Source of the DNA: a virus
IMG/VR virus record: IMGVR_UViG_3300008954_000211
Span: 1 to 28,313 of that record
Length of the DNA stretch: 28,313 bases
Strand: one strand, 5' to 3'
The notes beneath the pieces were generated by a model, which made no database searches, was not told the DNA's origin, and was given only the letters and a program-made list of their open reading frames with translations. Position numbers and translations under genes: made by a program. Positions 15,383-28,313 of this stretch are shown one piece after another (the first letter of the stretch is position 1; every line of letters starts with the position of its first letter).

Positions 15383-17206
15383 TTATTCACCTGACTCACC
15401 CAAGAGTCCACGCACGATGACAAGACCGTACATATCAGGACGGACCATCTTCTTGGCGTAACGAGTCATCACGCCCTTACGGGGCACGAAGTCTTCGGGG
15501 CCAAAGATGGTGGGTGTGGTCTGCAGTGGCACATACGGTGCGTACACAAATCCACTTTCAAGGAAAGAAGATCCGCGACGTCCGACGAGAACCACGTTCC
15601 GCAGGAAGTATGGGTCAACAATGACGTCAAACTTCTTGGAAAGTGATCCCACCTTGACAGCACCAATGGAGCCCTTCTCATCATCATTAGTGACAGAAGC
15701 ACGGAATCCAGCCGTGAACTCAAGGAGATTGGCAAGTTCGGGTCCAACGACCACGAAGTTTGCACCACCCCGCAGAGTCTTGCGGTGAATCTGTGCGGAC
15801 ACATCATTAATGGTTTCGATCAGAGTCTCATACCATTCGCTCACAGTACCGGTGAAATCGGGAGCCTTTGTAGACGCACCAACCTCGGCACCAGTCTCGC
15901 GGTTTAAGAACATACCGGGAGAACGTGACCAGTAGTAAGTACCAGCAGTTGCACCATTGACGAGATCCGCAAGAATCTCACGGTCAATCTCAAGAGCGAC
16001 CTGCTCAGAGAGAATGCTCGTAAGCTCAACCTCAGCATCCAGGTTGTGGTAGGCGTTAAGATCCTGTCCTAACTCCGGAGTCCACTTAGCCTTCAGCTTC
16101 TTGGTTACTGCGGTAATCGCCACGGAATCGACCTTGATGTCGATCTCGGGGATGTTCTGCTGGTTTTCCAGTCCCCAGACAGCCTGTCCAACAACCGCAC
16201 CCAGAGCACCACCAGAGACAAGATCATCAGTCTGGGCCCAGGAAACAGTGTTCCAACTAGCCGTAAGAGCGCCGACAACAAAGTCCGACAGTTCCTTGGG
16301 GAGGTTGGGCTGCGCACCATCACTACCCGTACTCACGAAGACAAGCTTCACACGAGGCGTGGTGGAACCACTAACCCGTTCCGTATGACGACGAATCAAG
16401 CGTGCAGTTGCAACGGCGGCTCCCTCAGTACCGGTGGTAGCACCAGTCTTCAGAATACCATTTCCGAGAGAACAGGATACATTGAAAGACTGAGGTCCCT
16501 CCATGCTAGCCTGATCGAGTCCCGACTGCAACACTGTGACAACTGCCACAGCCGTAGAGCCAGACACGAAATCGGGATCCCAATCGACTGCCTTATTCAG
16601 CACCGAGGCAGAGCTTTCCATACTGCCAAAGACACCATAAGGTCCCGCTTGCACAGTAAGGGTGAGATTATCAGCCGTGTCCGAACCGGTTGGAGATGAA
16701 TAACCGTTGTTAAGGTTATACGCACCGCCAGCACCGCCGACGCCGTGCTGGTTCAGGTCCACACCACCAGTGATCTGGGACCCAACCTTTCCACCACCGT
16801 AGAAAGAGCTAGACCAGTCATAGGCCAAACGAGAATACTCGTTGTCAAGGCCGTTGCCGGTGTCGCGACTTACGGTGAAGTCCAGGAAGAAGATGAGACC
16901 CGAGGGGAGACTCATCGGCTGAACGCTAACTAGATCGTTAGCGATCAATCCCGCAAAAACACGACGGACAATGGGGAATGCGACGGCAGCAAAACCTTCG
17001 ACATCTCCACCAGCCATGGTAGAAGTTTCGCGGAGAAGCTCCTTTGCCTGATTTTCAAGCAAACGAGCCATAGAGTGGCGTTGACGCTCAGTGTTAATGC
17101 CTTCCAGCAAACCTGTGCGCTCCCACTTCTGTAGTAATGCATGCCCTTCAGCACGCAAATCACGATTGATAACTCCTTCGGTCAATCGTTCAATTATACC
17201 AGCCAT
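15383..17206 (-). CDS. gp23: Major capsid protein (gp23-like)
   Basis: The 607-residue protein contains the conserved blocks of the T4 gp23 HK97-fold family: FPIVRRVFAGLIANDLVSVQPM (residues 77-98) with LPSGLIF, the KKLKAKWTPELGQDLNAYHNLD block with ILSEQVALEIDREIL, and a C-terminal YVPLQTTPT and MVRPDMYGLV. The Leu-x-Glu sequence LRE at residues 58-60, before TST, fits the recognition pattern of gp21-type proteases and lies near the T4 cleavage site at residue 65. LLE at 49-51 is a second candidate. So residues 1-60 are probably a removed propeptide. A Gly-rich insertion at about 135-190 and further middle insertions make it longer than T4 gp23 (521). The ribosome site is a near-perfect AGGAGGT. 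The gene uses C-ending codons much more than its neighbours do, as expected for the most abundant protein. Confidence 0.95.
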   Translation of the reverse strand: MAGIIERLTEGVINRDLRAEGHALLQKWERTGLLEGINTERQRHSMARLLENQAKELLRETSTMAGGDVEGFAAVAFPIVRRVFAGLIANDLVSVQPMSLPSGLIFFLDFTVSRDTGNGLDNEYSRLAYDWSSSFYGGGKVGSQITGGVDLNQHGVGGAGGAYNLNNGYSSPTGSDTADNLTLTVQAGPYGVFGSMESSASVLNKAVDWDPDFVSGSTAVAVVTVLQSGLDQASMEGPQSFNVSCSLGNGILKTGATTGTEGAAVATARLIRRHTERVSGSTTPRVKLVFVSTGSDGAQPNLPKELSDFVVGALTASWNTVSWAQTDDLVSGGALGAVVGQAVWGLENQQNIPEIDIKVDSVAITAVTKKLKAKWTPELGQDLNAYHNLDAEVELTSILSEQVALEIDREILADLVNGATAGTYYWSRSPGMFLNRETGAEVGASTKAPDFTGTVSEWYETLIETINDVSAQIHRKTLRGGANFVVVGPELANLLEFTAGFRASVTNDDEKGSIGAVKVGSLSKKFDVIVDPYFLRNVVLVGRRGSSFLESGFVYAPYVPLQTTPTIFGPEDFVPRKGVMTRYAKKMVRPDMYGLVIVRGLLGESGE

Positions 17207-17240: not shown

Positions 17241-18446
17241 TTAATCGATACCTGCTAGTTTTTTCATCCTATCCGCCATGGGATCGGATGGTACGCTCTC
17301 TTGACGAGAGGCACGTATAACAGAAGTGCCACGACGACCGAGTGCTTCGCTTAGTGATTGCGGACCAGACTTTACAGTCGATCCCACTGTGCTTTCAAGC
17401 GTGCGGTATATTGTTTTAGCTTCTGTTACTGAACCAGCTTTTGAAATAGCGTCGGCAATTTTTGTTTTTTGCCGCTCATTTAGGGAGGTATTTCTCAAAA
17501 CACGGTTCGTGTAAAGCAAGCGAGCATTGGAAAGGTTTACTTCATGTAAGCCTTCCTTCAACTCTTGAAGTGCTTGCTTGTGTTGGTTAAGGGACTCTTT
17601 AAGTTGTCTATTTTCAAAAACAACTTCTTCTTGAGCCTTCTTCAAATCTTTCATTTCATCTTCAACATCGGTGCTGCAGCGGTGGGCAAATTCTTTTTCC
17701 ATTTCCCAGCGCATCTTCTCGGATGAGCTTCCAGCCCAGCCAGTCAAATCAGCACCCATGTCAACTGTAAGTGTTTCGACGATGGAGTCAATTAACTCAT
17801 CGGAGATATCCATAGTCTCTTCGAGTCCGGCCTTTGCCATCGCATCGCTGTCAGCTTCGGTGTCTGCGGCAGAACCTGCGAGTGCCGCGGCACTATCATC
17901 ATCGTCTTCTTCCTCTTCGCCGGCTTCTTCGCCCGCAAAAGAGCCTGCATCGGTGGCCGCTTCTCCCAACAATGCATACAAATCTTCTTCATTAAGCTCG
18001 ATTTCCTGCTCGTTCTGAAGTTGCTGTACAGCTTCCTGGAGGGCGTCAAGATTAATCTCCACTTCTACGTTCTCGCCAGCGCGTGGCAGGTCGCTCAGAT
18101 TTTCGCCTTCGTTTTCGGAGAGATTGTCGGTTGCGGCAAGAGGAATATCTTCAGCCACTTCTTCGGCCTGCTCAGCGCCGCCGGCGCCAGCATCCATTCC
18201 CCCCCCTAAGTCCATACCAGGATCAGCCGGCGCGGCTGCCATGGGATCTCCTTCCGCCGGGGGAGGGGGCACTCCCAGGTCGGCGCCCAAATCATCGAGG
18301 GCCCCTTCTTCTTGTTCTAACAGATGATTCAAAGTGGTACGCACTTCTTCTGAATATCTATCAATTACAACGGATTCGGCATTTTTAAGTGCAGCTTCCC
18401 GTAAAGCTTTTGCGTCGACGATGGCGTCTCTTAGCAAACTAGACAT
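17241..18446 (-). CDS. gp22: Prohead core scaffold protein (gp22-like)
   Basis: The 401-residue protein precedes the capsid gene by 34 bases and has the features of a T4-type scaffold. It is acidic and low in aromatic residues, with Ala/Gly/Pro-rich stretches (55-95), a strongly acidic block (172-184, Glu and Asp) and a long coiled coil at about 245-312. A conserved C-terminal helical region follows (LLYTNRVLRN at 310-319, then AKTIYRTLEST), and it ends in DRMKKLAGID. The scaffold assembles inside the capsid shell and is destroyed by the prohead protease. The ATG at 18446 has TTTAGGAGT upstream and an ACTATTTATT motif further up, so scaffold and capsid probably share a transcript that ends at the terminator at 15317-15353. 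The acidic block is longer than in T4 gp22. Confidence 0.87.
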   Translation of the reverse strand: MSSLLRDAIVDAKALREAALKNAESVVIDRYSEEVRTTLNHLLEQEEGALDDLGADLGVPPPPAEGDPMAAAPADPGMDLGGGMDAGAGGAEQAEEVAEDIPLAATDNLSENEGENLSDLPRAGENVEVEINLDALQEAVQQLQNEQEIELNEEDLYALLGEAATDAGSFAGEEAGEEEEDDDDSAAALAGSAADTEADSDAMAKAGLEETMDISDELIDSIVETLTVDMGADLTGWAGSSSEKMRWEMEKEFAHRCSTDVEDEMKDLKKAQEEVVFENRQLKESLNQHKQALQELKEGLHEVNLSNARLLYTNRVLRNTSLNERQKTKIADAISKAGSVTEAKTIYRTLESTVGSTVKSGPQSLSEALGRRGTSVIRASRQESVPSDPMADRMKKLAGID

Positions 18447-18511: not shown

Positions 18512-19618
18512 TTATGACCCTCGGCTGCTTATAACCCACCAATTTTCTCCATCGGACTGAAGCGACCGGCACGCGGTTGTCATTTTTATTTTAATCTCGT
18601 CAAATAAATCAATTGAGCCGCCGGCGCTTTTAATGATTAATGTATGAGACTTCAATATATATTTTTTCGAATGAATGGTTTTCAAATTTAAAATACGCCC
18701 CTTATGCAGAGCAGCATCGGGCAATATTACGGACACATGGTTATTAGACAGATCGACTAGTATAGTATAATCATTATCACTCACTTCATAAATTGGATTA
18801 GAGATAGTAGTAATGTTTTGGTGGTTTGCTGAGGTACAGAAGAGAGGGCCCGTTAAATCTACTCTTTCACTGGCCTTCAAAGCTAATGTTGAGAGTTGTC
18901 CATGAATATTAAGAATATTTTGGGCGCCATCAAAGGTTAAATTTCTACTAGAGCCAAAAGTGCTTCCCCTTTTAAACTGTAGGGTGTTTTGTTCTCCAGT
19001 GGGATGATGAATTTTAGAATTAATGTAGTCTTTATAAAAAGCTTGGAGAGTAGATTTACGAATCCGGTTGTGGGAGTTGTCATATACTAAAATACTGTCA
19101 GCGTCGGCTAGAGTTTGACCGTTCATCTTAATAGAGCCTACACCCTGGAAGCTTAATGTAAGCTGATCGTCTTCGATGGCGAGGCCGCTATCTTTGCGGA
19201 GGTCTAAAGTCTTCGCAGGCACAGTTCCTCGCAACTTCTGAGCGGGAATATCTGTCAAGTTCTCTGCCGATCCATACAAGTTGTTAAACCGCAAATTTAT
19301 ACCACTTAAGGTGGTACCATCCCATGCCAAATTTGTGGCTGCTGTGATGGTGTCGTCTCCGTTCGAAATTAAAATACCACTTGCACGGTTGTTGACAATG
19401 GTTTGTACCGCTGTGGGTCTAATCTCTCTCCCATCTGCGAGCTTAAAAGCTGTCGCTGTGACAGTCGAGCTAAAAGTCTTCTTTCCATTGATTTTTTGGT
19501 CCGAATGATCGTCTACTACGGTATCAAGTTTGTCAATTTTATTGAGTTTTTCTTTGTCTTCTTCTGCTAGTTCAATAACAGCAGGTTCAAGGCCCGGTTG
19601 AACAACATTATAAGCCAT
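18512..19618 (-). CDS. Modular virion fibre / surface protein with a C-terminal cap domain
   Basis: The 368-residue protein is a mosaic. Residues 38-60 (DHSDQKINGKKTFSSTV) match the DQxIxGxKTF motif common at the base of phage fibre repeats. Residues 96-127 (NLAWDGTTL through a LTDIPAQKL segment) and 225-240 (NLTFDGAQNILNI) parallel the LTFDG module of the 211-residue neighbour. Residues 170-195 (LADADSILVYDNSHN, then RIRKST) look like one unit of the repeat found nine times in the 662-residue neighbour. Residues 277-368 form a beta-rich end domain, with ILVDLSNNHVSVILP and a final SDGENWWVISSRG, similar in pattern to the caps of the neighbouring proteins. It is probably a trimeric surface or fibre component. 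The actual location on the virion is unknown. It starts after the terminator of the 662-residue gene, with AGGTAA upstream. Confidence 0.75.
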   Translation of the reverse strand: MAYNVVQPGLEPAVIELAEEDKEKLNKIDKLDTVVDDHSDQKINGKKTFSSTVTATAFKLADGREIRPTAVQTIVNNRASGILISNGDDTITAATNLAWDGTTLSGINLRFNNLYGSAENLTDIPAQKLRGTVPAKTLDLRKDSGLAIEDDQLTLSFQGVGSIKMNGQTLADADSILVYDNSHNRIRKSTLQAFYKDYINSKIHHPTGEQNTLQFKRGSTFGSSRNLTFDGAQNILNIHGQLSTLALKASERVDLTGPLFCTSANHQNITTISNPIYEVSDNDYTILVDLSNNHVSVILPDAALHKGRILNLKTIHSKKYILKSHTLIIKSAGGSIDLFDEIKIKMTTACRSLQSDGENWWVISSRGS

Positions 19619-19705
19619 ATATTAAATTACCTATATTATGGATTGCAAGAATCTAGTTTGCCTGTCATAATTAGACTCAATAAACTATAAATGCTTCGAT
19701 TATAT

Positions 19706-19738
19706 AAAAAAGGACGCCCCCCACGAGGAGGGGCGCCC
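19706..19738 (-). terminator. Strong intrinsic terminator after the 662-residue repeat protein gene
   Basis: The minus-strand transcript forms a GC-rich hairpin: GGGCGCCCCTC and GGGGGGCGTCC arms around a short CTCGT loop, then TTTTTT. It lies about 35 bases after the stop of the 662-residue gene and separates it from the next gene. Confidence 0.88.
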
Positions 19739-19773
19739 AGTAAACATTATCTTAGCAAGAGATAAATCTTAGA

Positions 19774-21762
19774 TTAGATAATAGACCATGAGCCGGAAAC
19801 AGTGTACACAAAGCCAACGGTGGCATAAGGATCGTTGAGGATGATTTGAGTTTCACCATCCATCTTATGCGTTCCGGAGACTTCTATATGAATACGATTG
19901 TTTACACCACAGTTACTCGGAGCTTTAACAAAGTATGTATCACCCACTGTCGGAGCCGAAGCTTCTGGCAGATTGATTTCGATATATCCTTGGTTGGGAT
20001 CAATGACACTAGCGGTAAAGTAATTCATACCCGCGGTCAATGTAACTCCCCACGCGGCGGCCGTGGAACTCATCGAGTCACCACCGGAAGTGTCCACAGA
20101 GAACACGCCGTTAGTGGCAGTAACACCAGTACCAGCCATCGCACTTGCGAGGTCAGCAATGCTTTCCTTCTTAGAAGCGTTGCTATCGTTAGCGTCGACA
20201 ATAGCAATGCTATCGTTAGCAACGTCAACAGCAGCAGCAGTCAACGAGTCCATGTCGAGAGCCAGCACCGAGGATGCAGCCTTCAGGCCGTTGCTTCCAG
20301 CAAGGAAAGTTGCGAAATCAGCAAGAGACTCTTTCTTGCCATCGCCAGTAGCGCCACCATCCAGGAACATGACATAGTCAGCCGCGGCAATCGAAGCTTC
20401 CGTGAGCAAAGCAGGAGACTTGGTGATCATGTTGTCGAAAGTGACTTTGTGAACTCCATCATCGCCGGAGTCATTGAACGCGATAGCATCGCCAGTGGCA
20501 ATAGTTTCGGCTGACAAGTTAGCGATGTCGAGAGCCATCACTGCAGAAGCGGCGGTCAGACCAGTACCAGCAAACAAAGTTGCGATATCATCGATGGTTT
20601 CTTGACGAACCACATCACCATTTTGATCATTGAACAAAAGAGTGTCCGTGGATGCAATAGCAGCCGCGGTTACATTGGCAATATCAAGGGTGAGAACACC
20701 GCTGGAAGCAGCGAGTGCGCTGTTGCCGACTGTGCCAGCCAGGAAAGTTGCTATGTCATCGATACTTTCCACTTTGGAAGCGTTGGAGTCATTTGCATCA
20801 ACAAACGCAAATTTATCGCCAGAAGCCACAGCCGCATCACTCAATTCGCTAAGGTCGAGTTCAAGTACTCCGCCAGTTGCACCGAGGCCTGGGCCCGCGA
20901 GGGCAGTGACGACATCGGACACAGCCTCCTTCTTGGCTTCGCCCGAGGCGCCACCATCAAGGAAGACGATATAATCGTCTTCGACTGCAATCGCAGCTTC
21001 AGTAACAAGCGCTGGACCGATCTTGAAAAGATCGTCAACGGTTTCCTTGTGGAGACCGTCGTCGCCATCATCATTGAATACGATAGTATCGCCAGTAGCA
21101 ATAACTTCTGCATTCAAGTTATTGATGTCAAGTGCAAGAACACCACTTGAATCGGCGAGTGCCGTAGTGGTTACTGTGCCAGCGATTGCACCCACAAGGT
21201 CAGCAATGCTTTCCTTTTTCGACAGATTAGAGTCGTTAGCGTCGATGATAGCAAAGCTATCGTTAGCAACGTCAACTGCAGCAGCGGCAAAATCGTCGAG
21301 ATCAACAGTAATATCGTCAGCAGCAACCGACAGACCACCGTTAGTTGCGCTAACAACAGCGAGTGTTGAGTTGGTCACAGCGAGTCCGGCGCCACCGAGC
21401 AAGCTAGCGAGATCAGAAGTATCACCCTTGGATTCGGCGCCGCTGGTGCCACCATCAAGGAAGATGAGGAAATCCCCATCCGCAATGGTTGCGGATGCCG
21501 CTTCAGTCAGATCGACGGCGATGTCATCATCATTAACGTCGATTAGAGAACCAGCGCCAACAGCAATAGTGTTGACACTACGCACCAAACCTGAGCCGGC
21601 AATATTGTCGCACAAATCCGTACTAAGGTTTCTCCCGTCGATTAATCCGGAAGCCGAAATGTTAGTAGTAGCACCACTTGCACTCAGAGCCGACTGGATT
21701 GGACCGGCTACAGTGAGAGAACCACTTAAAGTTGTGGGTCCCAATTGAAATTTATAAGCCAT
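19774..21762 (-). CDS. Repeat-built virion fibre / surface protein (nine Asp-rich repeats plus cap domain)
   Basis: The 662-residue protein has an N-terminal head (1-85), nine imperfect repeats (about 90-555) and a C-terminal cap (about 563-662). Each repeat has an LDI/VDL start, an A-x-GD strand, an Asp/Asn-rich turn, then K-x-ES/T-x-x-DL and a short Ala/Gly helix-like end. The turns come in three types: FLDGG (101, 267, 466), DANDSN (174, 322, 523) and FND-type (229, 377, 429). The Asp/Asn-rich turns could bind calcium. The cap has LTAGMNYFT, INLPEASAPTVGD, a KAPSNC segment and SGSWSII, and is closely related to the cap of the 211-residue neighbour. There is no signal peptide and no enzyme motif. 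It is most likely a fibre or capsid-surface protein. The ribosome site is a strong AGGAGGG. The gene uses more C-ending and regular codons than the flanking genes and ends at a strong terminator, suggesting high expression. Confidence 0.85.
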   Translation of the reverse strand: MAYKFQLGPTTLSGSLTVAGPIQSALSASGATTNISASGLIDGRNLSTDLCDNIAGSGLVRSVNTIAVGAGSLIDVNDDDIAVDLTEAASATIADGDFLIFLDGGTSGAESKGDTSDLASLLGGAGLAVTNSTLAVVSATNGGLSVAADDITVDLDDFAAAAVDVANDSFAIIDANDSNLSKKESIADLVGAIAGTVTTTALADSSGVLALDINNLNAEVIATGDTIVFNDDGDDGLHKETVDDLFKIGPALVTEAAIAVEDDYIVFLDGGASGEAKKEAVSDVVTALAGPGLGATGGVLELDLSELSDAAVASGDKFAFVDANDSNASKVESIDDIATFLAGTVGNSALAASSGVLTLDIANVTAAAIASTDTLLFNDQNGDVVRQETIDDIATLFAGTGLTAASAVMALDIANLSAETIATGDAIAFNDSGDDGVHKVTFDNMITKSPALLTEASIAAADYVMFLDGGATGDGKKESLADFATFLAGSNGLKAASSVLALDMDSLTAAAVDVANDSIAIVDANDSNASKKESIADLASAMAGTGVTATNGVFSVDTSGGDSMSSTAAAWGVTLTAGMNYFTASVIDPNQGYIEINLPEASAPTVGDTYFVKAPSNCGVNNRIHIEVSGTHKMDGETQIILNDPYATVGFVYTVSGSWSII
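20098..21495 (-). repeat. Nine-unit coding repeat with a higher-order C-A-B pattern
   Basis: Units of roughly 40-70 codons within the 662-residue gene fall in three turn types. In protein order they read C-A-B-C-A-B-B-C-A (C = FLDGG, A = DANDSN, B = FND..GD). This points to duplication of a three-unit block of about 150 codons plus an extra B unit, rather than of single units. Confidence 0.8.
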
Positions 21763-21799
21763 ATTTAAATACCCTCCTATAATTGTATTATTTTTTGGC

Positions 21800-21828
21800 G
21801 ACTGGGTTAGTTATACACCACCCCAGTC
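21800..21828 (-). other. Hairpin in the 209-base gap before the 662-residue gene
   Basis: GACTGGG (21800-21806) and CCCAGTC (21822-21828) can form a perfect 7-bp stem with a 15-base loop. In the minus-strand transcript the following bases are GCCAAAAAA, not a T run, so it is not a terminator for these genes. It may fold in the leader of the 662-residue gene. The remainder of the gap (21829-21971) shows no recognisable gene or promoter motif of the shared type. Confidence 0.35.
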
Positions 21829-21971
21829 AGACCCACCTGTGACGGGGGGCCTTACTATTAATTAGTGAGACCGGGTACTTAAATTTGTTCAATCATGCGA
21901 TTAATCGACCTCCACATACAAATAAGGCCGCTTTGCACATCACTCTATATAAGTTTGTATTTTTATGTTAA

Positions 21972-22607
21972 TCAATAAAGCATCCACGATCCCGAAGAAG
22001 CGTAGACTATCGACACAGCAGCATAGGGAGAGTTTAATACAATCGAATCTTCTCCATCAACCTTGTGGCTCCCAGATGTAGCAATCGTTATAATACGGGT
22101 TTCATTACAGTTGCTTGGCGCTTTTAAATGTACCAAATCTCCCACAGTCGGCGCCGATGCTTCTGGCAAGGAAACAGTCATAGTGCTCACGGCTGTTCCT
22201 AGAGTACCAGTAAAATAATTGAAGCCGGCGGTGAGGGTTGTGCCGTTAACCGCGGCTGTGGCGGTTACTCTGTCGCCGGAGCCCGTACCAGCAGTGATGC
22301 CAGTAAGGCGACTGCCGTCTCCCTCAAAGAAAGCAGCTTTCACTCCGATGCTAGCGGTGAGATCGCCGGTAATATTAAGGACGTCCCCATCAAAAGTGAG
22401 ATTAGTCTCGCATGTGATGTCGTTAGCGTCACCGCCCACATTCGTAATGAGCGCGTTATTGCTAGGGTTGGTTACGCGCGGAATATTAATAATAGAGCCG
22501 CCATCCGAAGTGCTTAAATTACCAGAAACGATGTTCCCAATTATTAAATCACCGGGCAGATATTCCTGGGCGGCTATTACGGTGCCAGATAAAGTGTTGT
22601 ATGCCAT
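21972..22607 (-). CDS. Small modular virion surface / fibre protein, paralogue of the 662-residue protein's cap
   Basis: The 211-residue protein has an N-terminal MAYNTLSGTV segment like its neighbours. Its middle module contains NALITNVGGDAND (51-63), NLTFDGDVLNITGDL (69-83) and FFEGDGSRLTGI (93-104), a combination I recognise from structural proteins of marine T4-like phages. The C-terminal cap (115-211) contains LTAGFNYFT, SLPEASAPTVGD, LKAPSNC, SHKVDGE and SGSWMLY, closely matching the cap of the 662-residue protein. There is no repeat region, so it looks like a minimal head-plus-cap version of the same architecture. It starts 18 bases after the 236-residue gene. GGAGG lies about 14 bases from the ATG, somewhat far. 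Confidence 0.78.
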   Translation of the reverse strand: MAYNTLSGTVIAAQEYLPGDLIIGNIVSGNLSTSDGGSIINIPRVTNPSNNALITNVGGDANDITCETNLTFDGDVLNITGDLTASIGVKAAFFEGDGSRLTGITAGTGSGDRVTATAAVNGTTLTAGFNYFTGTLGTAVSTMTVSLPEASAPTVGDLVHLKAPSNCNETRIITIATSGSHKVDGEDSIVLNSPYAAVSIVYASSGSWMLY

Positions 22608-22625
22608 AAGGCATCTCAGCCTCCA

Positions 22626-23336
22626 TTAAAATACATACCACGCAGTAGCACCGTTTGAGTATAAATGAATCGCAGGCATTGAGCCAGTTAATAAATAGTA
22701 GCCGACATTATCAATTGTATCAGCCCCCGATGCAGAGATATGAATGGCTGATGCAGTCGTTCGGCTCCCGGGATATTCGTCCTTCACGATAATAACACCT
22801 CCACGCGCTACAGTAGCGGCGCTGGGCAGTCTGAAATTGGTTTCTAGATCTCCGACATTAATGCCGACAATATAATCTCCGGCAGAAGCAGTCACTTTGT
22901 CTATTAATACATTGCGATAGTTTCCTTGGAATGCGCCTGAGAGCGTGAGGCCTCCCGAGCCTGTAATATAGACTCTTGTTTCGGCTACTGAGGCACTTAA
23001 GACATATCCGGCGCCATCGGCTTTCCACACAGACAGGCTTCCTGTGCGAATATGGGTATCATCGTTACTGTTACCAAACTTAGTTGAACCGGTTGCGTCA
23101 ATCACCGTCACATCTTCAATGTGCATGTGACTGGCGCTGATGGTGCCTGTGACCGAGAGCGTGCCAGTTAGCTGCAATAAGTTATGCGCCGATTGGTATG
23201 TGAAATTGGACGATCCAGAAGAGAAAGTATCTCCTGCACCTGTCATGTATTGCACAGAACCGGAAGGACCGTTGGCGTTGCCGCTCACGGAGCCCGTGTC
23301 AGAACAGTTTATATATGCCCATCCAAAATTAGCCAT
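22626..23336 (-). CDS. Virion surface / fibre-like structural protein
   Basis: The 236-residue protein has a Ser/Gly/Thr-rich, beta-strand-repeat composition: GPSGSVQYMTGAGDTFSSG near residues 24-42, FTYQSAHNLLQLTGTLSVTG, then HIEDVTVIDATGSTKFGNS and DDTHIRTGSL. This run of short strands is common in tail or head fibre proteins of environmental myoviruses. The C-terminal 90 residues (from SAGDYIVGINVG to AWYVF, with NFRLPSAATVARGG in the middle) have the same plan as the caps of the neighbouring proteins, namely a LP-x-A strand and a final aromatic strand, but are more diverged. AAGGAG precedes the ATG. It lies 11 bases after the 629-residue gene. The exact virion location is not known. Confidence 0.74.
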   Translation of the reverse strand: MANFGWAYINCSDTGSVSGNANGPSGSVQYMTGAGDTFSSGSSNFTYQSAHNLLQLTGTLSVTGTISASHMHIEDVTVIDATGSTKFGNSNDDTHIRTGSLSVWKADGAGYVLSASVAETRVYITGSGGLTLSGAFQGNYRNVLIDKVTASAGDYIVGINVGDLETNFRLPSAATVARGGVIIVKDEYPGSRTTASAIHISASGADTIDNVGYYLLTGSMPAIHLYSNGATAWYVF

Positions 23337-23347
23337 TCATAAACTCC

Positions 23348-25237
23348 TTATTCGCTTATCACATATTGTAACCAAACAAGAGCTTTCCCTGCGGTTAGAG
23401 CCTCGGTAGCTATTGTTAGAGTAATATTTGCAGCAACAGAAGTTTTGACAGCGGTCGCGCCTGATGAAGGGCTCACGCTGAAAAGACCTGTGGAACCGTA
23501 GCCAAGTGTAGCGAGACTATTCGCGGAAACGATGTCGTCTGCCGTGGCAACGTGAATGGCCACCGTCGCAGTTGCGGTAGTGTCAGTAAAAGCTGTCACG
23601 ACATCTATGAAGCCACCCACAATAACTGCATTATCGGGAATAGTAACCGCAAGATCTTTCGCGCCAACAGTTCCACCGTTTGCAGCAAAATCATATTCTG
23701 CTTTCGCCCATCTTGTGAGTGACGCCCACGCAGCGTCTGTTGGTTCCGTATTGTCAGCATCCAGTAAGTTCAACTCTGCGGCAGTGGAAGTCACCCCGTC
23801 AAGAATGTTAAGCTCTGCGGCAGTGGAAGTCACGCCATCGAGAATGTTAAGTTCTGCGGCAGTGGACGTTACCAAGACACCCCCCAGCTTCAGCCCATTT
23901 GTGCCGTCGTGAGAAGCAACATCAAAATCATTTGTGCCGTCGCTAATCGTAGCATTACCATTTACCGTTAACCCTGTGAGCGTACCGACTGCTGTGATTT
24001 GTGTTTGTGATGCGTCAACGCTCAATGTATTTGTCGAAAGCGACAAGCCTGTGCCTGCGACAAGATTTGTATCATCACTAATATCTAGTTTAGTTAGCGT
24101 GATCTCTTGACTAGAAAGAGTTAGGTAATTTGGCGTACCAGCTAGTGTCACATTGGTTGAATTATCTGTGCCGGCAGCATCTACACCAAGATTAGTGCGA
24201 GCATCGGCGGCTGTGCTAGCACCAGTGCCACCATCAGCAACAGCAAGATCGGTGATGCCGTTAATTGTTCCACCATTAATGTCGCAAGTTGTGACAGAAC
24301 CAAGGTCTGCGACGGTGATGCCGGCGTTTGTCCAGTTTGCGTTGAATTGTGCGACGGTGAGTCCGCCATCGTTTGCAAGTCCGAATTCGCCAGAAGGGCT
24401 GCTGATATAATATGAGCTACCAGTGATTCCTTGTGAGCCGGTTAGGGAGCCGTTAATTGTAACAGAGCTAGTGATGTTGTTGCCGAGAATTGTACTTCCT
24501 GTGACACACAGAGTACCGTTAATATCCCAAGTGTGTGCCGGATTATCAAGGTTGAGCCCAAACATTGAGCCGGTGCCGACGAAACCATAACCTGCAGAAG
24601 CAGTCATACCGACGCCGGTTTTGTTTGTGATTCTAAATCTGCGGTGATCTGCTGTCTGTGTGTCGACCCCCAAAGACCAAGCCCGTGATGAATCTGAATC
24701 GAGGTCATCAGAGGGGACCATCTTGAAGCCGATGTTTTTTTCTGACCCTGGTTGGCGGTTTCCCTCGCTGTCTAAGCCCTGACCAGCGCGATAAACAATA
24801 TTAGCATCAACGTTGCGAGTGCGCAAGGTAATAGCATTTGCTCCGTGACTGTCAACGTGTATTACTCCACGTTTACTGTTAACGCCTGAGCCAGATACCC
24901 ACAAGGCCGCCTGATTGGCCCCGGCAATGCCTTGACCTGCGGCTCCGGAAATGACCACGAGAGGGCTTCTGTCGGCATTGTTGGAATCGCGCTTGAATAG
25001 GACACCCATCGATGCAGTGATATACGGCATTTCGATATTGCTAACGACTCCCGAGCCGGTGACCGTGTTGACGCCCAGCTTGCCCTCATTGGTCATGCCA
25101 TAGTGGCGAGAACCATCACTGATTTGGAGAGAGCTTCCGGTAATACCTGAAGACGCGCTTAAATTGCCTTCAGTGGTAAAGTCTCCAACTAAATTATTTC
25201 TTCCTGGGGTGAATCCCCCGCCCGAACCAAAGCCCAT
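23348..25237 (-). CDS. Large fibre-like virion protein with a 13-residue tandem repeat
   Basis: The 629-residue protein begins with a Gly-rich segment (GFGSGGGFTPG) and alternating strand-turn sequence such as TEGNLSASSGITGSS and GEFGLANDGG. Around residues 335-400 it has the VADGGTGASTAADARTNLGV segment typical of tail fibre repeats. Next is a run of three TSTAAELNxLD repeats, found in many marine phage fibres. The C-terminal 125 residues (from about EYDFAANGGTVGAKDLAV to the final VWLQYVISE) form a beta-sandwich-like domain also seen at fibre ends. It is likely a homotrimeric fibre or surface protein. The long Ser/Thr/Gly content and lack of enzyme motifs argue against a catalytic role. The ATG has CTTAAGGAG upstream. 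It follows the 139-residue structural gene by 15 bases. Confidence 0.8.
   Translation of the reverse strand: MGFGSGGGFTPGRNNLVGDFTTEGNLSASSGITGSSLQISDGSRHYGMTNEGKLGVNTVTGSGVVSNIEMPYITASMGVLFKRDSNNADRSPLVVISGAAGQGIAGANQAALWVSGSGVNSKRGVIHVDSHGANAITLRTRNVDANIVYRAGQGLDSEGNRQPGSEKNIGFKMVPSDDLDSDSSRAWSLGVDTQTADHRRFRITNKTGVGMTASAGYGFVGTGSMFGLNLDNPAHTWDINGTLCVTGSTILGNNITSSVTINGSLTGSQGITGSSYYISSPSGEFGLANDGGLTVAQFNANWTNAGITVADLGSVTTCDINGGTINGITDLAVADGGTGASTAADARTNLGVDAAGTDNSTNVTLAGTPNYLTLSSQEITLTKLDISDDTNLVAGTGLSLSTNTLSVDASQTQITAVGTLTGLTVNGNATISDGTNDFDVASHDGTNGLKLGGVLVTSTAAELNILDGVTSTAAELNILDGVTSTAAELNLLDADNTEPTDAAWASLTRWAKAEYDFAANGGTVGAKDLAVTIPDNAVIVGGFIDVVTAFTDTTATATVAIHVATADDIVSANSLATLGYGSTGLFSVSPSSGATAVKTSVAANITLTIATEALTAGKALVWLQYVISE
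23774..23873 (-). repeat. 39-base tandem repeat inside the 629-residue gene
   Basis: Two full copies and a partial third copy of a 39-base unit start at 23774, 23813 and 23852 and encode TSTAAELNILDGV three times. Copies differ at only a few bases, so the expansion is recent or kept alike by recombination. The period is a multiple of 3 and the unit is coding. Confidence 0.9.
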
Positions 25238-25252
25238 TTTTTGAGTATCTCC

Positions 25253-25672
25253 TTAAGTTAAATCGTTAAGATGTTCAGTTAACCCAGAGCCGGTAAGATC
25301 GTACATGCTCATTCGGTCAATTCCCGTAAGTTCTGCTATTATCCGGTATTCTGCGTCCCCCCCATTAGCTGGAGCACTCACAAATATACGGTTACATTTT
25401 GCATTAAAGGTATACGAATCTTCATCACTATCCAATTCAACATAGTGAACACCACTAATTACGGGGCCTGAACCGGTAGAATTAAAGTGGACTCGAATCG
25501 TGTTCGCAGAGTGATTAACTACAGTAATATTTTTGGTTACATAGGGAAAGTCATATTGGATCTCCTGTAGGGGGGCATGTGTGGTGGACCCGCTAATATA
25601 GGGTTGCCCTGCAACTTGATATGACCCAACGTTTGCTAGGCCCGGGGGGGCCCATCCAAGGTGTGATGACAT
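25253..25672 (-). CDS. Small virion structural protein of marine T4-like phages
   Basis: The 139-residue protein begins MSSHLGWAPPGLANVGSYQVAGQP, a start I associate with a conserved structural protein of cyanophages and related marine myoviruses. The body is beta-rich: FPYVTKNITVVN, IRVHFNSTG, GVHYVELDSDEDSYTFN and CNRIFVSAP. It ends in a flexible tail (DLTGSGLTEHLNDLT). Size and fold suggest a capsid decoration or surface attachment protein, and it opens the fibre-like cassette. It is first after the bS21 gene and has its own promoter-like motif and a TAGGAG ribosome site. The family is known from structural-protein lists. Its exact place in the particle is my inference. Confidence 0.78.
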   Translation of the reverse strand: MSSHLGWAPPGLANVGSYQVAGQPYISGSTTHAPLQEIQYDFPYVTKNITVVNHSANTIRVHFNSTGSGPVISGVHYVELDSDEDSYTFNAKCNRIFVSAPANGGDAEYRIIAELTGIDRMSMYDLTGSGLTEHLNDLT

Positions 25673-25715: not shown

Positions 25716-25961
25716 TCATATTTTTCTATTGCGCCTTCTTTCTTGGGCGCGCTTTCTTTTTTTTTCATCTCGCAGCCTTTGGCGCTCTGCGCGGATGCGT
25801 TTTTCCTTTTTGGCTACCGAAGGTTTTTTGTAATGTCGACGCTCTTTAACTTCGTCTAGAATGCGGTCTTTTTTAACCTTTTTGGTAAAACGACGAATCA
25901 TTCTATCCACACTTCCGCGGCATTCTTTTATTGTAACTTTAACGTGCGCACCTTTAGACAT
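25716..25961 (-). CDS. rpsU: Ribosomal protein bS21 homologue
   Basis: The 81-residue, very basic protein matches bacterial ribosomal protein bS21. Residues 17-25 (SVDRMIRRF) and 34-48 (ILDEVKERRHYKKPS) line up with the PFDVALRRF and VLAEVRRREFYEKPT parts of E. coli S21, and the remainder is the usual Arg/Lys-rich helix, about ten residues longer than in E. coli (71). In the ribosome bS21 lies near the 3' end of 16S rRNA, where mRNA is selected. A phage copy may replace the host protein and favour late phage mRNA. Phage bS21 genes are known in a pelagiphage and in jumbo phages. I choose the ATG at 25961, 5 bases after the previous stop, over the in-frame TTG at 25985. It lies among head genes, so it should be made late and in quantity. 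Confidence 0.85.
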   Translation of the reverse strand: MSKGAHVKVTIKECRGSVDRMIRRFTKKVKKDRILDEVKERRHYKKPSVAKKEKRIRAERQRLRDEKKRKRAQERRRNRKI

Positions 25962-25966
25962 ATTTC

Positions 25967-26371
25967 CTACTTCAATGCCTGCCAAATAGCACTCGACTTG
26001 TCCATCATTGCTGTGATGTCTACTCCTGCATCTCTAGGGTCTCCTAGATCGGCCTGACCTTGTGGAGGCTGTGAATTGCTCATGGGTTCCGTACCCTCAA
26101 AAAGATTGACCCCATTGTAAGCCTCATCGCCGATAGAATCCATTAAACTTTGGCGGTATTGATTAATTTTCTGGGTGCTCTCGGTGTTTTTTCGCTGTGA
26201 GGGTGTTCGCTCTTGGCGCGGGCGCGCCTTCGATTCTACAATCACATTCTGTCGTAGGCCTTTTGCAACCTCCGATACAACATTAGATAGAAGCCCTTCT
26301 TCTAAAAGGACTTCGTGAATACACTCCTTGACCAATGGTTTAATAATCTGTTTCAGATCTGATTTCTTCAT
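25967..26371 (-). CDS. Small prohead-core-like protein, unassigned
   Basis: The 134-residue protein starts MKKSDLKQIIKPLVKECIHEVL, an amphipathic helix followed by LEEGLLSNVVSEVAKGL. This N-terminus is familiar from small proteins beside the prohead protease in marine T4-like phages. The middle is basic and Gln/Arg/Ser-rich (about 45-70), and the end is acidic and flexible. Its place between protease and scaffold resembles that of T4 gp67/gp68, the minor prohead core proteins, but no sequence identity to those can be claimed. It may be a core protein degraded by the protease. AAAGGAT precedes the ATG. The gene lies 3 bases after its neighbour and 5 bases before bS21. Confidence 0.7.
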   Translation of the reverse strand: MKKSDLKQIIKPLVKECIHEVLLEEGLLSNVVSEVAKGLRQNVIVESKARPRQERTPSQRKNTESTQKINQYRQSLMDSIGDEAYNGVNLFEGTEPMSNSQPPQGQADLGDPRDAGVDITAMMDKSSAIWQALK

Positions 26372-26374
26372 GTT

Positions 26375-27379
26375 CTATCCTTTGATAATTCCTGCTAGTT
26401 TGTGCCACTTTTCCAATAAAACCTTGTCGTCGTGCTCTACGCCTTCTGCTTGGGGAGTGTCACACTTGTCATAAGGTTCCCCTAGATTTTTGACACCCGT
26501 CGCAAATACTCGCTTAGAGGCAGGTTCGCATGTCTCAGGATTTAATTGAGTTACTTGTGCTGCCTCTGGGTGGTCTGGAAGGGGGTTGGTAACTTGGACA
26601 ACACCTTTGTTACCTTTCTTCGAGGTATAAACATAGCTATCGCCCTGCTTAACGGCAGTACCGGGAGCGGGTGCTTCGGTTCCGCCTTCGTCGTCGCCAG
26701 GAACCTCTTCTCCTGGCTGCTCGCCGGGCTGCTCTGCGGGCTCTTCTGCGGGCTGCTCAGCCGCCTGTTGCTGCTGTTGTGCGGGCTGCTCTTCGGGTTG
26801 GGCTTGAATATAGGCAGAGGCAAATTCTCTTACGTCACCAAAGCCAGCATTTTGAAAAATCGTTAAGACAGCTTTTTGGTAATCATCTGATTTAAGTCCG
26901 GTCACCACAAGCTTATAAAGGTTAGGATACTTCTCCAGATTTTCCAGCTTTCCGATCTTAGGCTTGCGCTCATGTTCCATTGCTCCGCGGGATGTGGCCT
27001 GTCGGCGGCGGAAAGGATTCCGAAGTTCCGACAAGTCAAGCTCCTTGCCCTGATCCATAATCTTAATATTCTGGTCTCGGAGGAACTGTTGGTACTCGCG
27101 CATAATGGCGCCATCGTCCAGCCTTCCCTGAAACAAATCTTGATTCAGATCTTGGAACCCTTTAATAGTTTCGGTAGCCTGACTAGCGTCAACATCTACC
27201 CATTCAAGTTCTTCTTTGCCGCCTTGTTCGTCGGGACACTCGGGACATGGAGGGCAGTCCTCTGGTCTTCCGCCGAATCTTGCTTTCTTTGCGTCCTTGT
27301 CCATCTCTTCAGTCAAGAACTCTCGCCATGCATCAGTGTGTTGCTGGTTTTCCTTAAAGCTGCTCCATTGCTTACTCAT
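26375..27379 (-). CDS. Acidic, Gln/Glu/Pro-rich head-module protein, unassigned
   Basis: The 334-residue protein is not one I recognise. The N-terminal 60 residues are charged and contain a CPPCPECP cysteine cluster at 42-49, which could bind a metal. Residues 60-190 are helical. Residues 193-240 are low-complexity Glu, Gln, Pro and Ala. Residues 245-310 form a small beta-rich region with two further cysteines. The end, LLEKWHKLAGIIKG, shares the KLAGI motif with the C-terminus of the scaffold protein. Composition and place between protease and scaffold suggest a prohead core or scaffold-associated protein. The ATG overlaps the end of the protease gene by 8 bases, so it is translationally coupled, with GAGGT just upstream. 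Confidence 0.72.
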   Translation of the reverse strand: MSKQWSSFKENQQHTDAWREFLTEEMDKDAKKARFGGRPEDCPPCPECPDEQGGKEELEWVDVDASQATETIKGFQDLNQDLFQGRLDDGAIMREYQQFLRDQNIKIMDQGKELDLSELRNPFRRRQATSRGAMEHERKPKIGKLENLEKYPNLYKLVVTGLKSDDYQKAVLTIFQNAGFGDVREFASAYIQAQPEEQPAQQQQQAAEQPAEEPAEQPGEQPGEEVPGDDEGGTEAPAPGTAVKQGDSYVYTSKKGNKGVVQVTNPLPDHPEAAQVTQLNPETCEPASKRVFATGVKNLGEPYDKCDTPQAEGVEHDDKVLLEKWHKLAGIIKG

Positions 27380-27980
27380 TATCTAATACCTCGTTAAGCA
27401 ATCGGTTAATACGATCTGCTTTGGTGAACACATTTGGGGCGCTCAAGTCCTTGGCTTCTTTCATCATATATGCACCGGGAGTTGAAGGTTCAGATACAAA
27501 GTCAAAACAGATAAGTTGGAAATCATCTTCCACGATGGTTTGTCCTTGAGATTCGCTAACAGAGCCCATGCCTCGGGAAGAAATTCCCAGTTGTGCGCCG
27601 CTATTAACTAGTCCCTTAAGGATGTTACCAGACGGAGTATCGAGAACTTTTACTTTTCCCATTACATTCTTATCATCCATCCAAACATCTGTCACCATAT
27701 GAGATGCATTCTTAAGATTAATAACGGAGTCGTCAGGATGATCTAGTTCTCCGAGGGCTCTGCGCTCTTTCACTAACTTTTTATAGTTTTGGACTTCACG
27801 CGTTAAAACCTTATAAGGATAAATGCGGCCATTACCGTTCTGAACATCGGCTTCTTGCAGCTTGCCTGACAGCATCATGCCGCCATTTGAAACGAATCGC
27901 TTCTCTTCTTCGGTTAACAGATCTTGACATACGCCACCTTCGCAAAGCGCATAATATTCTCGTAATAAAACTTTAGCCAT
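27372..27980 (-). CDS. gp21: Prohead core protease (gp21-like)
   Basis: The 202-residue protein has the herpesvirus-type serine protease features of T4 gp21. GELDHPDDS (77-85) holds the catalytic His81. LGISSRGMGS (131-140) holds the nucleophile at Ser134 or Ser135. CFDFVSEPSTPGA (158-170) holds the acidic partner at or near Asp160. NGNGRIYPYKVLTREV (48-63) is also conserved in the family. It cuts scaffold, core and capsid proteins after Leu/Ile-x-Glu inside the prohead and then destroys itself, making room for DNA. The size is close to that of T4 gp21 (212). The ATG has AAGGAT upstream. The next gene overlaps its stop by 8 bases, so the protease and the core-like proteins are made together. 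Confidence 0.92.
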   Translation of the reverse strand: MAKVLLREYYALCEGGVCQDLLTEEEKRFVSNGGMMLSGKLQEADVQNGNGRIYPYKVLTREVQNYKKLVKERRALGELDHPDDSVINLKNASHMVTDVWMDDKNVMGKVKVLDTPSGNILKGLVNSGAQLGISSRGMGSVSESQGQTIVEDDFQLICFDFVSEPSTPGAYMMKEAKDLSAPNVFTKADRINRLLNEVLDNE

Positions 27981-28028: not shown

Positions 28029-28313
28029 CTAATCCACGTATTTGTATTCATGTTTAATTCCTTCGTCTCCAATTAACATATTAAGAACATACGATGTTCC
28101 TGATGAGATGCAACCTAAAATAAAATAATTTACCGCGGTTACATCAAAATTAAATAGTTCTGTATATGGAGAAAGTAGCATCAAAATCCATCCTACGTGA
28201 AAACCCATGCACATGGGACATGAAAATAATTGTCCTAGCCAGCCTTCAGTAGGGCGAAGTCCATCTAAAATCTTTCCATATACCAAAAGTTGCGTGAGTC
28301 CGTAAGAAGCTAA
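28029..28313 (-). CDS. Small membrane protein with CPMC motif, DUF1360-like (partial, 5' end missing)
   Basis: The reading frame stays open to the right edge, giving 94 residues plus an unknown N-terminal part that reads LASYGLTQLLVYGKI at the border. A TTG at 28286 could be a start, but the upstream residues continue the hydrophobic pattern, so I treat the gene as cut by the window. The conserved parts are LRPTEGWLGQLFSCPMCMGFHVGW and a second hydrophobic segment (VNYFILGCISSGTSYVLNML). The CPMC-MGFHVG pattern resembles small two-helix membrane proteins such as DUF1360, whose function is unknown. Similar genes occur near head genes in environmental T4-like phages. It may act in the host membrane rather than the virion. 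It ends 48 bases before the protease gene. Confidence 0.7.
   Translation of the reverse strand, partial: LASYGLTQLLVYGKILDGLRPTEGWLGQLFSCPMCMGFHVGWILMLLSPYTELFNFDVTAVNYFILGCISSGTSYVLNMLIGDEGIKHEYKYVD

Follow-up and report, generated by a model that had tools for sequence, protein, structure and literature searches.

A bS21-like ribosomal protein gene among the head genes of a marine T4-like phage

What use might a phage have for a ribosomal protein gene set among the genes for its head? The question is raised by a short gene in the 28,313-nucleotide stretch of DNA analysed here (IMG/VR record IMGVR_UViG_3300008954_000211, positions 1 to 28,313; hereafter the window), which comes from a T4-like, marine phage known from sequence alone. 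A sequence-only reading had taken the gene for bS21, expressed with the structural genes and reprogramming ribosomes at the time of virion production. The answer favoured here, with moderate confidence, is that a working bS21 would be made late and exchange into the host 30S subunit, sustaining or shifting initiation toward phage mRNAs.

The gene, its product and its neighbours

The gene is an 81-aa ORF on the minus strand, 25961..25716, with its ATG at 25961 and a product of net charge +24; the plus-strand reading of 25716-25961 is interrupted by a stop. The protein starts MSKGAHVKVTIKECRGSVDRMIRRF, contains DEVKERRHYKKPSVAKKEKR, and carries MIRRF and DEVKERRHYKKPS. It matches PF01165 at 1.4e-12 (47.5 bits, above the curated cut-off of 27) and phrog_21469 'ribosomal protein S21' at 2.4e-05, and a six-frame search of the whole record gives a bS21 signal of 1.1e-13. 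The earlier description of a bS21-like protein with conserved parts is borne out by these matches, including the family HMM search that had been proposed as its check, and on this sequence evidence the identification as a phage bS21 (rpsU-like) is secure.

A chance ORF can be ruled out because relatives are encoded at 28 loci in viral contigs, the gene is under purifying selection, and its upstream neighbour is constant. The 28 loci (L002-L029) were found by tblastn of the window's bS21 against viral contigs; against 50,697 phage records there were zero matches at 0.01. The dN/dS ratio is 0.06 between the window and L002, and has a median of 0.26 and a maximum of 0.68 over 200 bS21 pairs, the distant ones being near saturation, which indicates purifying selection. 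These pairs, all with usable synonymous divergence, derive from 72 sequences without N; the unique bS21 number 77, of which 73 are full length. Residues F25, K46 and S48 are unchanged across 63 aligned bS21, including one bacterial sequence and distant phage ones. Loci L026-L029 form a diverged branch in which bS21 is longer (103-104 aa where measured), with an extended N-terminus and a basic tail, and the gene order is unchanged.

An AF2 model of the window's protein, built from 59 sequences (pLDDT 84, pTM 0.43), has three predicted helices at residues 18-31, 34-42 and 47-80. Foldseek returned 7 PDB matches with this model, all of them ribosome chains and none significant (best E 0.65), of which three (5aj3_U, 7qv1_b, 6rw4_Q) are named as bS21 or as its mitochondrial counterpart. 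Off the ribosome, bS21 has little tertiary structure, so that a non-significant result made up wholly of ribosome chains is weak but consistent.

Such conservation bears on a plainer account, judged rather unlikely, in which the phage copy is a matter of supply: host bS21 would run short after host-gene shut-off, and the phage protein would complete ribosomes in the late burst without favouring any mRNA. It is the ordinary bS21 core that is best conserved, strong conservation fits a plain maintenance role, and no observation made here requires altered specificity. However, the N-terminal strand and the long basic C-terminal helix are also conserved in the family, would be needless for pure supply, and are unlike the sampled bacterial bS21 (81 aa in the window, 64 aa in the Flavobacteriaceae MAG described below).

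The features of the region, in order of coordinate, are as follows.

15383..17206, minus strand: major capsid protein gp23 (PF07068, 6.9e-70)
17241..18446, minus strand: 401-aa core/scaffold-like protein, charge -53, preceding the capsid gene; without convincing family match
18512..25237 (~6.7 kb), minus strand: variable cassette encoding proteins of 629, 236, 211, 662 and 368 aa, perhaps virion appendages
25253..25672, minus strand: 139-aa protein (g25253) directly downstream of bS21, detected in 24 of 28 relatives
25716..25961, minus strand: bS21 (rpsU-like), 81 aa (PF01165 match, relatives L002-L029, dN/dS, AF2 model)
25962..25985, minus strand: bS21/g25967 junction, with the g25967 stop TAG inside the AGGA preceding bS21 (AAGTAGGAAATATG)
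25967..26371, minus strand: g25967, 134 aa, probable prohead core/internal protein with an N-terminal segment ending LEEG (neighbour constancy, site)
26375..27379, minus strand: acidic protein of 334 aa (net charge -21), called core-like for its position only; without informative match
27372..27980, minus strand: gp21-type prohead protease, 202 aa (PF03420, 1.2e-30; phrog_207, 2.9e-55)
28029..28286, minus strand: small protein encoded upstream of the protease, with a DUF1360 match (E 0.0084) that falls short of the cut-off

The protease that had been placed upstream of bS21 is indeed there, by both family matches, and is the third gene upstream. The capsid gene is the eighth downstream, and only the second to fourth from bS21 in relatives such as L006, L024 and L027; beyond gp23 lie a head-tail adaptor match, the tail sheath and the tail tube. 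Among the 28 relatives, the small protein upstream of the protease is detected in 22, several contigs being cut, and the 334-aa acidic protein in two (L008 and L020). The 139-aa protein has zero Pfam matches and a best PHROG match of 0.07. The whole of 18512-25672, which had been called a virion surface cassette, is without informative family match, its sole phrog match (23348-25237) being of unknown function, and that label was a supposition. Cassette content varies strongly among relatives. A C-terminal domain is common to the 662-aa and 211-aa cassette proteins (19774-22607), with 51% between residues 545-659 of the first and 102-208 of the second, and the 629-aa protein (23348-25237) has in-frame repeats of a LDGVTSTAAELNI-like unit.

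Directly upstream of bS21, and on the same strand, g25967 is present in all 26 of the 28 loci whose contigs reach that far (the other two, L023 and L025, begin inside bS21). Conversely, bS21 directly follows g25967 in 78 of the 80 best among 153 g25967 relatives, and in the other two the contig stops 4 and 34 bases past g25967. The 78 are not 78 independent events, since several of the 80 are already among the 28 loci and some are near-duplicates. The tightly packed, same-strand placement of bS21 among head genes that had been described thus holds and is conserved across relatives.

The bS21 start lies 5 bases past the g25967 stop (25962-25966), as had been noted. Initiation at a TTG at 25985 would instead yield a form of 89 aa whose gene overlaps g25967, but relatives share the ATG at 25961. 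In L037, L043, L072 and L082 the g25967 stop and the bS21 start overlap as ATGA, by coordinates. To judge from its sequence, the junction has the usual anatomy of coupled translation. Late production of bS21 is probable because the gene is read in the same direction as the head genes and its SD or start codon overlaps the end of the probable core gene, and co-expression with the structural genes would follow from this arrangement.

The description of g25967 as core-like is likely, on the evidence of a low-confidence helical model (pLDDT 64, three helices) and of a conserved (L/I)xE(A/G/S) site, which 47 of 50 relatives have close to residue 23. The consensus (L/I)xE(A/G) is the kind of site cut by T4-type prohead proteases, and g25967 is accordingly a likely prohead core or internal protein. 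Most g25967 relatives have a C-terminal W-x-x-x-K. The family is strongly conserved and unnamed, with an N-terminus like MKKSDLKQLIKPLVKECIHEVLLEEG and with bS21 next wherever the contig continues; there were zero PHROG matches in 50 members and zero Pfam matches above cut-off. One locus, L041, has an identifier (IMGVR_UViG_2811995091_000133) that looks like that of a single genome and not of a metagenome.

The position of bS21 after a probable protease-processed core protein, and its net charge, would fit a packaged internal protein: a basic bS21 derivative that enters the prohead with the core and is injected with the DNA, to act on ribosomes as soon as infection begins or to bind DNA. Encapsidation is raised as a possibility in the available text of Chen 2022 (PMC9723584). 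However, bS21 itself has no conserved (L/I)xE(A/G/S) site, 7 of 73 having one and all of these near residue 34; the looser (L/I)xE in the first 30 residues is likewise found in 7 of 73, the window included (IKE at 11-13). As a purely structural role would also leave the best-conserved bS21 core unexplained, packaging is considered improbable.

Shine-Dalgarno use, host clues and position 54

The phage uses SD sequences. Mean SD pairing over 23 window starts is -6.07 kcal/mol, with 19 at or below -4 and 12 at or below -6, compared with 24% and 8.6% of internal ATGs (n=479). Strong SDs throughout the block had been claimed; this is correct for the block but not for bS21 itself, whose SD is modest at -4.8 kcal/mol (the mean over 77 family members is -5.05, and L063 has the strongest at -12.5). 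It therefore does not have the extended SD of an autoregulated Bacteroidota-type rpsU, which pairs below -13 kcal/mol according to the available text of McNutt 2023; the Flavobacteriaceae MAG's own rpsU is at -11.6 kcal/mol on the same scale.

Phages were compared by one automatic procedure, as the percentage of starts and of internal ATGs at or below -4 kcal/mol, by which the window has 74% and 23%. Three relatives of 136-195 kb are similar (G001 67/20%, G003 66/17%, G002 67/22%), as is G009 of the L026-L029 branch (68/13%). The nearest isolates range from depleted (immuto, 6/24%) through background (RM378, 25/22%) to SD-using (Mel-JY01, 56/13%), and values for other phages are 71/13% (Vibrio phage 2.275.O), 62/11% (Pelagibacter phage Mosig), 10/27% (LR756508), 41/20% (LR756511), 24/18% (LR756501), 5/15% (LR745206), 4/9% (LR756504), 7/15% (LR756502) and 11-28/17-20% (L159-L161). 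Where annotated starts were checked, they agree (Mosig 67%, Mel-JY01 72%, immuto 8%, Vibrio 79%).

The suggestion that these SDs fit a bS21 acting at the anti-SD end of 16S rRNA carries less weight than it might seem to. Vibrio phage 2.275.O and Mosig have SDs of equal strength and a bS21 away from head genes, so the SDs in the window are a sign of SD use by the phage and not of a bS21 that serves them.

In the 735-kb uncultured phage LR756501.1, where SD use is near background, AAAGGAGG lies directly before a Tyr54-type bS21, just before 542927 (L165:19976-20000). The same sequence precedes the rpsU of the Flavobacteriaceae MAG and is absent in three similar huge phages.

Other signals in the window are few. 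The motif TATAAATA (<=1 mismatch) has 54 sites on both strands where 28 are expected, a number reached in 0 of 100 dinucleotide shuffles; no promoter is claimed for it because the sites are scattered on both strands and the one before g25253 is ~13 bases from the start. Between 22000 and 28313 there is no excess of sigma-70-like sites (7, and 9.2 in shuffles) or of terminator-like sites (7, and 6.7 in shuffles), and the window has zero Rfam matches and zero tRNA.

A scan of bacterial genome contigs gave two matches, in a Flavobacteriaceae MAG and a Maricaulis MAG, each of which has another bS21 elsewhere. The contig in the Maricaulis bin is probably misbinned, since it is 42% GC and the MAG's own rpsU stretch is 66%; for the Flavobacteriaceae bin (41% and 38%) composition has no discriminating power. 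Profile A4, one row of which (L159) is of Bacteroidota type, was searched in the two phyla, with 200 and 61 genomes; when this row was left out, rescoring was confined to the top 30 and 20 loci, with the phage contig itself among each. The family profile reaches at best 45.3 bits in the Flavobacteriaceae MAG's phylum and 39.2 in the Maricaulis MAG's, so that with two phyla compared the profile scores lean, by 6 bits, to the former. A 195-kb relative encodes a GroEL-type chaperonin (L139:16381-17961; Cpn60, 1.3e-65) that is 42-47% identical to those of the Flavobacteriaceae MAG's phylum (146 of 148 genomes matched), which is uninformative on the host.

Residue Tyr54 in the bS21 of F. johnsoniae stacks against the 16S rRNA 3' tail and so contributes to hiding the anti-SD (McNutt 2023; Chen 2022, PMC9723584; both as far as their available text goes). 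Of the 77 sequences of the window's family, 3 are partial and were dropped; the 74 that can be read at this position, taken as the twelfth residue after KPS/KRS, have Arg (70) or Lys (4) there and no aromatic residue. Several phages fit a rule by which Arg54 goes with SD use: the window's family, Mel-JY01 and Mosig have Arg or Lys and use SDs, and four huge phages and L159-L161 have Tyr and are SD-poor or near background. The residue in LR745206, LR756504 and LR756502 was read by eye, and Vibrio phage 2.275.O, without the KPS motif, is unreadable here. Searching with the Flavobacteriaceae bS21 turned up three phage contigs whose bS21 is of the Tyr54 type and in which no head gene was recognisable by eye among the ORFs listed within 5 kb.

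The rule itself was rejected. In 20 genomes hand-picked from the 61 in the Flavobacteriaceae MAG's phylum, with one 18-20 kb stretch each, Arg54 is present in 14, but an SD excess above 0.1 in only 2 of the 14 and in none of the 6 with Tyr54 (one-sided Mann-Whitney p 0.065, n 14 and 6). Arg54 alone therefore does not track SD use, 12 of the 14 being without such an excess, and LR756508 also breaks the rule, since it has no aromatic residue at 54 and yet an SD-poor stretch.

These data bear on a more radical possibility, in which the host ignores SDs, and a phage bS21 without the Tyr54 clamp would free the anti-SD for SD-led phage mRNAs. The phage does use SDs and has Arg or Lys at position 54 in 74 of 74; the profile scores are higher in the Flavobacteriaceae MAG's phylum, of the two sampled, where 18 of the 20 hand-picked genomes are without an SD excess above 0.1; and F. 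johnsoniae ribosomes gain SD use when bS21 is absent or carries Y54A (McNutt 2023, available text). An SD-using host is, however, the simpler explanation of the phage SDs, and the Arg54 genomes without SD excess and the SD-poor LR756508 argue against the switch, which is regarded as very improbable. It is just as hard to credit that an Arg54 bS21 would replace the host protein in an SD-ignoring host and so create a phage-made class of ribosomes reading SD-led late genes over SD-less host genes. From the sequences compared, position 54 sets the window's family apart from the Chen 2022 phages without revealing a mechanism.

A possible role on the host ribosome

In the favoured reading, late and abundant bS21 would exchange into the platform of the host 30S subunit, beside the 3' tail of 16S rRNA, and 30S subunits bearing it would keep up initiation, or shift it, in favour of the phage's SD-led late mRNAs. 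Ribosome entry, which is presumed here, has been reported for the bS21 of another phage: in the available text of Mizuno 2019 (PMC6375957), the bS21 of pelagiphage HTVC008M entered E. coli ribosomes. Those ribosomes made ~5% of the control protein, which tells against taking a gain of function for granted. The ordinary SD of bS21 itself and the non-significant Foldseek E-values also count against this reading, and a preference for phage mRNAs is, like ribosome entry and late co-expression, an inference.

Comparison with known bS21-encoding phages

According to the available text of McNutt 2023, bS21 is by far the commonest ribosomal protein encoded by phages, and that of Mizuno 2019 (PMC6375957) lists 1310 bS21-encoding viral genomes and contigs, with 90% of the bS21 from aquatic samples. 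A jumbo cyanophage with six ribosomal proteins is also described (PMC13157829, in part available). The marine T4-like phages HTVC008M and Pelagibacter phage Mosig carry bS21, as the window does; in Mosig it is ~15 kb from the capsid gene, near genes for an AAA protein, a small heat shock protein and a sliding clamp. In Vibrio phage 2.275.O (MG592671.1, 31702-32933), the genes flanking bS21 are annotated as initiation factor IF-3 and an L7/L12/ClpS-like protein, which makes this a translation cluster; none of the annotations in the 40 kb shown is of a head gene.

Judged by capsid protein, the isolates closest to the window are Flavobacterium phage immuto, which also tops the protease list, Microcystis phage Mel-JY01 and Rhodothermus phage RM378, together with two uncultured huge phages. 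Immuto and RM378 differ from the window in having no bS21 by profile in 48 kb and 40 kb, and in SDs that are depleted and at background respectively; a profile search of 40-49 kb of immuto, RM378 and LR756511 found none. The cultivated Mel-JY01 (PP395634.1) has an annotated RpsU between the prohead protease and the capsid gene, on the same strand, and uses SDs like the window. Its bS21 aligns to the window's family (hhalign probability 95%, 41% over 61 columns), and the 154-aa protein encoded next to it on the upstream side shows no detectable relationship to g25967. In the 484-kb phage LR756508, bS21 is at 169713-169949, two ORFs before the capsid gene. The presence of a like slot in Mel-JY01 and LR756508 makes it appear older than the window's family.

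A bS21 gene beside head genes has therefore already been described (Chen 2022, PMC9723584; GenBank PP395634.1), and the idea has been published before; of the earlier interpretation it is the identity and the tight same-strand packing that stand, the placement being conserved, and the proposed function is plausible. In the available text of Chen 2022, bS21 shares a conserved block with the genes for terminase, portal, protease and capsid of a myovirus, is expressed late with the structural genes, and is proposed to redirect ribosomes; the hosts predicted for these phages are Bacteroidetes, mostly in freshwater, and their complete genomes are 293-331 kb. Across the 900 published bS21 phages also considered there, a protease lies within ten genes in 310 and a capsid gene in 154, generally 2-4 away. 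The window resembles this type in having bS21 near the protease and capsid genes, both within ten genes.

The differences from the Chen 2022 phages, as far as that text goes, are two and real: strand and packing, and position 54. In those phages bS21 is on the opposite strand to the structural genes and the block is not transcribed as a single operon, whereas in the window and its relatives the strand is the same, with bS21 5 bases from, or overlapping, the core-like gene. Position 54 is aromatic in 61 of 61 of those phages and Arg or Lys in 74 of 74 here. Among openly licensed PMC titles and abstracts, none was found that treats the SD use or the residue at 54 of head-linked bS21 phages from outside Bacteroidetes. 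The window's family thus offers a clean case, with a fixed place by a probable head-core gene, on the same strand, in an SD-using phage and with a non-aromatic residue at 54. In contrast with the Bacteroidetes phages of Chen 2022, it poses the question of whether phage bS21 alters mRNA choice or just completes ribosomes, and the cultivated Mel-JY01, with bS21 in a like slot, makes the question of mRNA choice testable.
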